A stretch of DNA of 64,000 nt, taken from contig JAJDAN010000003.1 in assembly GCA_029261855.1 (NCBI GenBank), forward strand, positions 124,001 to 188,000, read 5' to 3'. The notes beneath the pieces were generated by a model. That model had not been told where the DNA came from. It worked only from the letters and a program-made list of their open reading frames with translations, and ran no database searches. Source of the DNA: Deltaproteobacteria bacterium. GTDB lineage: Bacteria > Myxococcota_A > UBA9160 > UBA4427. Both the position numbers and the translations under genes were made by a program. Of this stretch, positions 10,207 to 12,746 are shown one piece after another; position 1 is the stretch's first letter; each line of letters starts with the position of its first letter.

Positions 10207-10899
10207 CTAGTCCGCGACGTCCAGACGCGCGTGGGTCTGCGCGTGCGTCTCGTAGTCGACCTTCTTCGCGTGGACGATGTAGCGCTGGGGTGCGTCGCCG
10301 ACGTAGTAGAACGGGTAACAGGTCACGAGGGTGAGTGCGTCGTAGTCGGTTGGTTCCAGCACCTCGACGGCACTGGGGGCGACGATCTCGATCTTCGTCA
10401 CCTCGTATTGCGAGACGCCCTCGAGTGTCGTGAGTGAGAGCGCATCGCCCTGCTCGACTTCTCGCAGCCCTCGGAAGAAGCCGTCCCGGTGGCCTGCAAT
10501 GCCCACGTTTCCCGAGCTCCCCGGTTCCGGGGTGCCCTCGATGTGTCCGACGGCCCGGTTGAGCGTCAGCTCGTCGGTACCGGCGAGAACCATGACCGAG
10601 ATCGACCCGTCCGGAACGTCGAGGCGCGCGAGCGCCTCGACGGGAACGGTCGACGCTTCTTGATAGTGGTCGATGCGAGCTGCCGACCAGCTGCTGGTGT
10701 CGTGATCCTCGGCGTGGAGCGCGGCAACCAGGGCGTCGTCGAACGCCGCCTTCTCGCTCGACTGGAACATCGCGCCGTGGGTACACGCCGCGGCGTATAC
10801 GCCCAGACAGACGAGCCCCAGCACGCAGAGCCCCCGTTCGCACCAACGTGCGAAGGAGGCCCAGCGCGGAGCTGAACGGGTCTGTGCCAGAGGGCTCAC
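10207..10899 (-). CDS. sortase, class D-like
   Basis: A 230-residue membrane-anchored cysteine transpeptidase that cuts an LPxT-type motif and links the protein to another molecule. An N-terminal transmembrane segment (about residues 22-40) precedes the beta-barrel. The catalytic triad is visible: His137 in IAGHRDGFF, Cys194 in TLVTCYPF and Arg206 in QRYIV. The sequence around the Cys resembles class D enzymes, whose substrates carry LPNTA-like motifs. The gene directly upstream in the same operon (21-base gap) encodes a small protein with LPKTA, the obvious substrate. Sortases are rare in Gram-negative bacteria, and what acts as acceptor nucleophile here is unknown. Confidence 0.9.
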   Translation of the reverse strand: MSPLAQTRSAPRWASFARWCERGLCVLGLVCLGVYAAACTHGAMFQSSEKAAFDDALVAALHAEDHDTSSWSAARIDHYQEASTVPVEALARLDVPDGSISVMVLAGTDELTLNRAVGHIEGTPEPGSSGNVGIAGHRDGFFRGLREVEQGDALSLTTLEGVSQYEVTKIEIVAPSAVEVLEPTDYDALTLVTCYPFYYVGDAPQRYIVHAKKVDYETHAQTHARLDVAD

Positions 10900-10920
10900 G
10901 GACTCCCTATCGGCCGCGAA

Positions 10921-11214
10921 CTAGTCGCGCCTGAGAAGCCGTCTGCGCGAGACGCGGACGACTCCGGCCAGTCCAAGCGCCGAGGCGCCCAGGACACCGA
11001 CGAGCGGCATCGGGCTCGCCGTCTTCGGCAGTGCGACCCGCACCGGCGGCGGCGGAGGCGCGACCTCGACGACGACGACTTCCTCGACGGGTTCGGGCTC
11101 CGGCTCGACGACGACGACTACTTCTTCGACGGGCTCGGGTACGGGTTCGGGCTCGCTCGCACAGGCAAGTGCGGCGAGTGCTGTCGTCAGAACGACTGCA
11201 AGAAGTCGGATCAT
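10921..11214 (-). CDS. small LPKTA-tailed sortase substrate with Pro/Glu/Val stalk
   Basis: A 97-residue surface protein candidate. Residues 1-18 are a signal sequence ending ALA-C, readable as a signal peptidase I site or as an imperfect lipobox with Cys18. Residues 20-60 are a low-complexity stalk of Glu-Pro and Val blocks (EPEPVEEVVVV repeated), then PPPPP. LPKTA (62-66) is followed by a hydrophobic segment (70-87) and an Arg-rich tail (88-96): the complete tripartite cell-wall sorting signal. Sortase is encoded 21 bases downstream in the same direction. There is no globular domain, so it may be a spacer, a polymer subunit or a protein that tethers two layers. Function unknown. Confidence 0.8.
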   Translation of the reverse strand: MIRLLAVVLTTALAALACASEPEPVPEPVEEVVVVVEPEPEPVEEVVVVEVAPPPPPVRVALPKTASPMPLVGVLGASALGLAGVVRVSRRRLLRRD

Positions 11215-11324
11215 GGGAAATTGCTCCTTCGGGGATTGCCGGATTCGAACGGGCCAGATCCTCGCACACCCACGGGGACATTGCTCGCACGGCTGGACCC
11301 CTCCACCCGTCGCGTTCAGACATT

Positions 11325-11354
11325 GTCCATATTTTTATAGACATAAATATGGAC
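11325..11354. promoter_or_regulatory. perfect AT-rich palindrome between sortase operon and sigma factor gene
   Basis: GTCCATATTT (11325-11334) and AAATATGGAC (11345-11354) form a perfect 10+10 inverted repeat with a 10-base spacer. It sits in an AT-rich patch within the 227-base divergent region, 110 bases from the substrate gene start and 87 bases from the sigma gene start. It fits a dimeric regulator's operator controlling both directions; a cruciform or RNA hairpin is the alternative. I see no T-run that would make it a terminator. Confidence 0.55.
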
Positions 11355-11441: not shown

Positions 11442-12746
11442 ATGACGACCCCCGCCAGCTGGGATTCAGATGTCCAATCGTACCTCCGCGCCGTCATCGA
11501 GTGGCCCCTGCTGAGCCCCGAGGAGACCACTCGGCTGGCAGAGACCATCGCCCGCGCCTCGCTCGACTTCCGGACGGCCTTGTCGGAGATCCCGGCGACC
11601 GCGCGGCTCCTGGTCGAGCAGTGGCAGGAGAGACACGACCAGGGGCTCGTGACCGGGATGATGTGTCACGCCGCCCGGGACGACCGCAAGACCGACTGGA
11701 CCGCCCACGTCGACACCCTCGCGCGAGAGATCCGCGCCTGCCTCGACGCCGACGAAGCCCCTGACAAGGCCGAGATCTCGGCCCTGGTGACCAAGGCCGA
11801 CATCCTGTTCGAGCTGCTCGAGGAGATCCACACGGATCTTCGGGCGCTCATGGCAAGCCGATCGCAGTCAGCACGTCGACGCAGACGGGAGCTCGGCCTC
11901 GGGTTTCCCCCTGCTCGCCGCTCGCTGCGGACGGCGACCGCGGCACGGGCGCGACGCGACGACGCGAAGCAACAGTTCGCGCGTAGCAATCTGCGTCTGG
12001 TCGTCGCTCGCGCAAAACGCTTTCGAAGCATGGGCGTGCGCTTCGAGGACCTGATCCAGGAGGGCAACCTGGGCCTCCTGCGCGCCATCGACAAGTTCGA
12101 GCCCGATCGCGGCTATCGCTTCTCGACCTATGCCGTCTGGTGGATCGACCAGGCCTTGATCCGCGCGATCCAGAATCAGTCGCGCACGATTCGGGTTCCC
12201 TCACACCTGTACGACCGAATCCGCGAGCTGCGCCGGACCGAGGATCGGATCCAGCTGGCCACCGGAAGTGATCCGTCTCTCGCACGCGTCGCGCACGCAC
12301 TGGGAATCGACGAGGACGAGCTCGAAGCTCTTCGGGCCAACAGTCGCGCGATCCGCTCCATCGACGAGAGGATCGGAGAGCGCCAGGGAGACCCCGACGG
12401 TCCGAACGGGCGCGCTCTCGTCGACGTGCTCGCGGACCCGAGACGGGAGGCGCCCGAAGACACCCTCCACCAGAAGCGGGTCCAGCGTGAGATCGCGCGG
12501 GGCTTGCAGGGGCTGCCGGCGCGAGAACGCCAGGTCTTGTCGCTGCGCTACGGCATTGGCGATCGACGCCCGATGAGCCTGCGCGAGATCGGACGAGATC
12601 TCGGGGTCACGGGGGAGCGGGTGCGGCAGATCGAGCTCGGCGCGCTGTCGGTACTGGCCTCACGCGGGGAGCTGGCTTCGCTGGCGGAACGGGACGAGCC
12701 TGCGGACGCCGGAGCCCGCGCGCTGGTGCTCGGCGAGACGGGCTGA
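11442..12746 (+). CDS. sigma-70 family RNA polymerase sigma factor (RpoD/RpoS-like)
   Basis: A 434-residue sigma factor. Region 1.2 is recognisable near residues 8-40; a non-conserved insert of about 130 residues follows. Region 2 is clear (RSNLRLVVARAKRF, FEDLIQEGNLGLLRAIDKF, YRFSTYAVWWIDQALIRAI), with region 3 after it. Region 4 ends with the helix-turn-helix MSLREIGRDLGVTGERVRQIE. The conserved -10 binding residues are present, so it should read a housekeeping-like -10. Length, lack of region 1.1 and location suggest an alternative (group 2) factor rather than the main RpoD. It is divergent from the sortase pair over the palindrome, which suggests shared control. Confidence 0.9.
   Translation: MTTPASWDSDVQSYLRAVIEWPLLSPEETTRLAETIARASLDFRTALSEIPATARLLVEQWQERHDQGLVTGMMCHAARDDRKTDWTAHVDTLAREIRACLDADEAPDKAEISALVTKADILFELLEEIHTDLRALMASRSQSARRRRRELGLGFPPARRSLRTATAARARRDDAKQQFARSNLRLVVARAKRFRSMGVRFEDLIQEGNLGLLRAIDKFEPDRGYRFSTYAVWWIDQALIRAIQNQSRTIRVPSHLYDRIRELRRTEDRIQLATGSDPSLARVAHALGIDEDELEALRANSRAIRSIDERIGERQGDPDGPNGRALVDVLADPRREAPEDTLHQKRVQREIARGLQGLPARERQVLSLRYGIGDRRPMSLREIGRDLGVTGERVRQIELGALSVLASRGELASLAERDEPADAGARALVLGETG

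Follow-up and report, generated by a model that had tools for sequence, protein, structure and literature searches.

The window analyzed here, a stretch of 64,000 nucleotides from a genome of 6.96 Mb in 91 contigs (G000), carries on its minus strand two genes separated by 21 bp, of which the upstream one codes for a predicted mini-lipoprotein of 97 amino acids and the downstream one for the only sortase of this genome. The small gene (10921-11214), whose product is the candidate sortase substrate, is preceded by an AAGGAG ribosome-binding site at 11224-11229. The protein begins with a predicted signal peptide, MIRLLAVVLTTALAALA (residues 1-17; 11164-11214), followed by the lipobox cysteine, Cys18 (11161-11163), and Ala19 in the +2 position. 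These are succeeded by a domain-free stalk of Pro, Glu and Val (residues 19-61; 11032-11160), the sorting motif LPKTA (residues 62-66; 11017-11031), in which the cut is expected between Thr65 and Ala66, a hydrophobic segment (residues 70-86; 10957-11007) and the basic tail RVSRRRLLRRD (10924-10956), all encoded on the same strand. The initial annotation had described a miniature LPKTA protein with a signal, a stalk, a hydrophobic segment and an Arg tail but without a functional domain, and our analysis confirms the ORF, its coordinates and its parts; searches against Pfam and NCBIfam detected no domain besides the LPXTG-type tail.

The sortase gene (10207-10899, minus strand) has a GTG start after an AGGGAG sequence and codes for a protein of 230 amino acids with one N-terminal membrane segment. 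This protein is recognized by PF04203 (105.2 bits against a cut-off of 26.6), and its catalytic residues His137 (10489-10491), Cys194 (10318-10320) and Arg206 (10282-10284) are invariant in 44 sortases. The two best-scoring models, with class C models lower, are the curated class D models NF058671, the best subfamily match (130.6 bits, cut-off 140), and NF033746 (118 bits, cut-off 165); as both scores lie under the cut-offs, we label the enzyme class D-like only. The nearest solved structures are those of B. anthracis SrtC (2LN7, 97 bits) and C. perfringens SrtD (4D70, 91 bits), both of class D, followed by a class C enzyme at 75 bits. The region TCYPFxYxGDAPxRYI is shared with 2LN7, whereas the scores below the curated cut-offs, the Gram-negative host and the predicted lipoprotein substrate distinguish the present enzyme from these class D sortases. 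The best models, the nearest structures and the intact triad uphold the earlier identification of a class D-like sortase with Cys194. Another cysteine, Cys46 (10762-10764), directly follows the membrane segment, in surroundings that resemble a lipobox; a cysteine after this segment is common to the six related sortases described below (LSAC, VTAC, VAAC) and absent from the sister sortases inspected. The sortase may itself be lipid-modified at Cys46, though its N-region is long.

Sortases of this type are present in eight of the 79 genomes of the order, and none was found in further genomes among 377 drawn from the phylum. The gene pair recurs in related genomes, with the cassette being present in six (G000, G001, G002, G004, G052 and G013) that represent four genera (g1, g2, g4 and g31) and two families (f1 and f7) of one Myxococcota order. 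In five of them the small gene lies directly upstream of the sortase gene, and in G013 the two genes are found at two contig ends. The sortase of G051 has a different partner, which faces the sortase gene and is cut by the contig end, and in G068 the contig is cut at the sortase gene. Three unrelated contexts surround the cassette: a divergent sigma factor gene (G000 and G001), a downstream gene that was named serS from inspection of its translation (G002, G004 and G013) and a recN-like gene named in the same way (G052). The maintenance of the pair amid such changing surroundings argues for a functional unit.

In the window, the sigma factor gene (11442-12746; 434 amino acids, RpoD/SigA family), which is conserved in the sister species G001, shares with the cassette a gap containing an AT-rich palindrome, GTCCATATTTTTATAGACATAAATATGGAC (11325-11354). 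A palindrome is also seen in the same divergent gap of G001, AT-rich but different in sequence. Hence, the palindromic divergent region shared with a sigma factor, to which the initial annotation had drawn attention, holds for genus g1 but not elsewhere: comparable AT-rich palindromes were not found in the upstream regions of G002, G004 and G052, and the element is genus-specific and outside the conserved cassette. Being absent from the other gene contexts, the sigma factor and the palindrome were rejected as parts of the system. A short element, ACCCACGGGG (11260-11290 in the window; also at L003 and L028), precedes the small gene in G000, G001 and G052, and is perhaps a promoter or operator.

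The small protein exceeds the cut-off of the sorting-signal model TIGR01167 (17.7 versus 15.9 bits), but this model is unspecific, also matching in 14 of 14 control genomes, and it is therefore conservation that bears the case. A lipobox, LPxT[AG], a membrane segment and a basic tail are combined in one six-frame ORF of the window and in none from 30 codon-shuffled windows. The small gene evolves as protein-coding sequence, with dN below dS in all four pairs compared, for instance G000/G001 (dS 1.11, dN 0.40) and G002/G013 (dS 1.24, dN 0.17). All six small proteins match the PS51257-type PROSITE pattern, with K/R within the first seven residues, and have the lipobox Cys at position 17 or 18 with Ala invariably at +2. 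These observations support the earlier proposal that a signal ending in ALA-C could make the protein a lipoprotein and hence a double-anchored tether. The LPKTA motif likewise proved to be conserved, as LP[KE]TA is kept in six of six orthologs. The stalk varies in sequence but is nearly constant in length, and the predicted mature chains, from the lipid-bearing Cys to the cleaved Thr, span 41-49 residues in all six, with no domain and no aromatic residue.

Other substrates were sought by three profiles. One of these was built from 22 LPxT tails, including the G000 sequence itself, and in each of the six genomes the cassette protein is its only convincing match; in G000 this match has an E-value of 6.8e-14, and the next, at 0.3, lies outside the motif. 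A profile of the small protein agrees, with one match per cassette genome. Thus, a search for other LPxTA-tailed proteins, as suggested at the outset, gave no second convincing one, and the small protein is the sole detectable LPxT substrate in the genome, dedicated to the sortase.

In a maximum-likelihood tree the six cassette sortases form one clade (support 100/99), separate from the enzymes of Acidobacteriota, Gammaproteobacteria and Myxococcaceae and from a class GN-like outgroup, with the split from the class GN sortases supported at 100/100. The class GN sortase of TIGR03784, with its VIT/VWA LPXTG partner, is similarly a dedicated Gram-negative sortase adjoining a single substrate (PMC3237569), but the cassette enzyme belongs to a separate clade and scores below the cut-off of that model (97.9 versus 158.25 bits), and the GN partner is larger. 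Sortases, which are familiar chiefly from Gram-positive bacteria, had initially been described as rare in Gram-negative bacteria, a view that does not hold: one scan yielded at least 550 confirmed sortase candidates, and many genomes from this order carry class GN-like sortases. Of these candidates, 80 class D-like loci, mostly from Acidobacteriota, were kept, and in 62 of them a same-strand gene no more than 4.5 kb away encodes an LPxT partner. Most of the sister enzymes from Acidobacteriota and Gammaproteobacteria have an LPxT[AGS] partner nearby, but these partners are larger than the cassette protein (mostly about 160-280 amino acids, with type I signals) and nearly always non-lipoproteins; within the 80 loci, mini-lipoprotein partners occur only at the three loci of the cassette clade and at L078. 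As the six sortases constitute one clade and the partners of their outside relatives differ, the change in substrate type tracks one sortase lineage. At the exceptional acidobacterial locus (L078:5328-5858), one sortase has two LPxT partners upstream, a 235-residue protein with a type I signal and a 101-residue mini-lipoprotein with MPKTA, the latter possibly a design of this kind that arose independently. Lipobox-like matches in L061, L067 and L110 were rejected, as the pattern lay within a type I signal or followed an improbable start. At the acidobacterial loci L067, L079 and L102, the sortase partners have long low-complexity stalks rich in Thr, Gly and Ser before LPKTA and are possibly fibrous wall proteins.

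We propose that the two genes form a dedicated anchoring cassette, in which the sortase joins the C-terminus of the lipoprotein to peptidoglycan, and consider it reasonably likely that the cassette is a functional analog of Braun's lipoprotein in this sense. Judging from its sequence features, the small protein would leave the cytoplasm through Sec and receive its lipid at Cys18 of the lipobox, with the C-terminal hydrophobic segment keeping its other end in the inner membrane next to the sortase. Cys194 of the sortase would then cut between the Thr and Ala of LPKTA, and the Thr carboxyl would be joined to an amine of peptidoglycan or of a peptidoglycan precursor, the best candidate being the side-chain amine of meso-diaminopimelate. 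In sortase chemistry, the protein is passed to an amine. Because lysine is missing from the mature G004 chain, the acceptor amine there must come from another molecule; the N-terminus would offer no free amine if Lnt acts. Class C sortases build pili, and the initial annotation had offered a fiber subunit beside a tether; of these two we favor the tether. Polymerization of the small protein by the sortase into a fiber or pilus draws on a certain similarity of the enzyme to class C, but the best subfamily is class D with class C scoring lower, no pilin domain is present, and the acceptor Lys is missing from the G004 chain, while the sole Lys of the mature chain in G000, G001 and G052 is that of LPKT itself. 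The lack of lysine in G004 in particular makes a fiber highly improbable. As regards attachment to the wall, sortases cut between Thr and Gly (Ala in the present motif) and pass Gram-positive proteins to the wall (PMC11980579), wall attachment being an established outcome of this chemistry (PMC11980579, PMC8263019), and diaminopimelate is accepted by a clostridial sortase according to van Leeuwen 2014 as cited in PMC5118464.

With the membrane tail removed, the Lol pathway would carry the lipid end to the outer membrane, resulting in a Pro/Glu-rich tether of 41-49 residues with its lipid in that membrane and its C-terminus in the wall. LolA is found in all six cassette genomes, and outer-membrane lipoprotein transport therefore probably exists in these organisms. 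If the lipid end instead stayed in the inner membrane, the same ligation would hold the wall to that membrane. The anatomy of the protein would be identical, and Dickeya OutB is a known case of an inner-membrane protein with a covalent bond to the wall (PMC12274547). However, the presence of LolA and the residue at +2, which is Ala in six of six and never Asp, make retention in the inner membrane unlikely, although the +2 rules were derived in E. coli and Myxococcota may not follow them. Alternatively, the sortase could act as a protease that clips off the C-terminal membrane segment by hydrolysis and thereby frees the lipoprotein to leave, with nothing being joined to the wall. Such release would account for a removable C-terminal anchor on a lipoprotein, but what remained would be just a stalk for which no other function is apparent, and a tag added just to be removed would be useless; we find this scenario quite doubtful. 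The substrates of other enzymes that sort proteins by their C-termini are believed to end up on the surface bearing a new moiety (PMC11980579), and by analogy the sortase could attach a lipid or polysaccharide to the small protein for display on the cell surface. Given that the substrate already has a lipid-anchor signal and no domain to show, we regard display as very unlikely. The probable role of the cassette is to fasten the outer membrane to the cell wall.

A close functional parallel is the E. coli system of Lpp and L,D-transpeptidases, which also relies on a small non-enzymatic lipoprotein, of 58 residues as against the 41-49 predicted here, with an N-terminal lipid and a C-terminus destined for the wall. 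The two proteins are nevertheless not homologous: PF04728, the Braun lipoprotein family, has no match at all in G000 and none over the cut-off in the 16 genomes examined, and the stalk is Pro/Glu-rich here but a coiled coil in Lpp. The enzyme is a sortase rather than a YkuD protein, and the C-terminal Lys attachment point of Lpp is not seen, the precursors ending in RRD, RFLA, RFLG, RRLQ or RRKK, with Lys last in G013 only. As the carboxyl would come from the protein and the amine from the wall, the bond would run opposite to that of Lpp. Within the same order, small Lpp/OprI-like lipoproteins (C-A-[ST] start, heptads and a C-terminal F[KRN]K.V.K) scoring below the PF04728 cut-off were observed in 12 of 79 genomes (L204-L215, from G034, G046, G051, G040, G058, G048, G068, G036, G042, G030, G019 and G060), with those of G034 and G046 adjoining two YkuD L,D-transpeptidase genes. 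They occur in none of the six cassette genomes and in 12 of the 73 others, a difference that is not significant, and G068, which has a close sortase on a truncated contig, also has such a protein. Mutual exclusion is accordingly not supported, although one tether replacing the other is possible. As YkuD transpeptidases are found in five of the six cassette genomes and OmpA-type proteins in all six, other links between outer membrane and wall exist or are possible; in G002, where no YkuD transpeptidase was found, a tether would need another enzyme.

According to PMC12274547 and PMC8263019, L,D-transpeptidases make the covalent outer-membrane-to-wall tethers that these papers list for diderms. 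LimB and the beta-barrel tethers of Coxiella and Brucella are, like the product proposed here, covalent links in bacteria without Lpp, but they are products of these enzymes and use either the N-terminus or a Lys within the chain (PMC12274547, PMC8263019). A sortase-made tether would therefore be a new route, and literature searches within an open-access library found none. Whether a sortase-built covalent tether between outer membrane and peptidoglycan, in which the protein would donate the acyl group and the wall supply the accepting amine, arose in Myxococcota independently of Lpp and the L,D-transpeptidase route is in our judgment evenly balanced. If true, it would constitute a second enzymatic answer to the question of how diderms hold their outer membrane and would give a role to a lineage of Gram-negative sortases. 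As the cassette comprises two genes that could be moved into a laboratory strain, this reading is a testable one.
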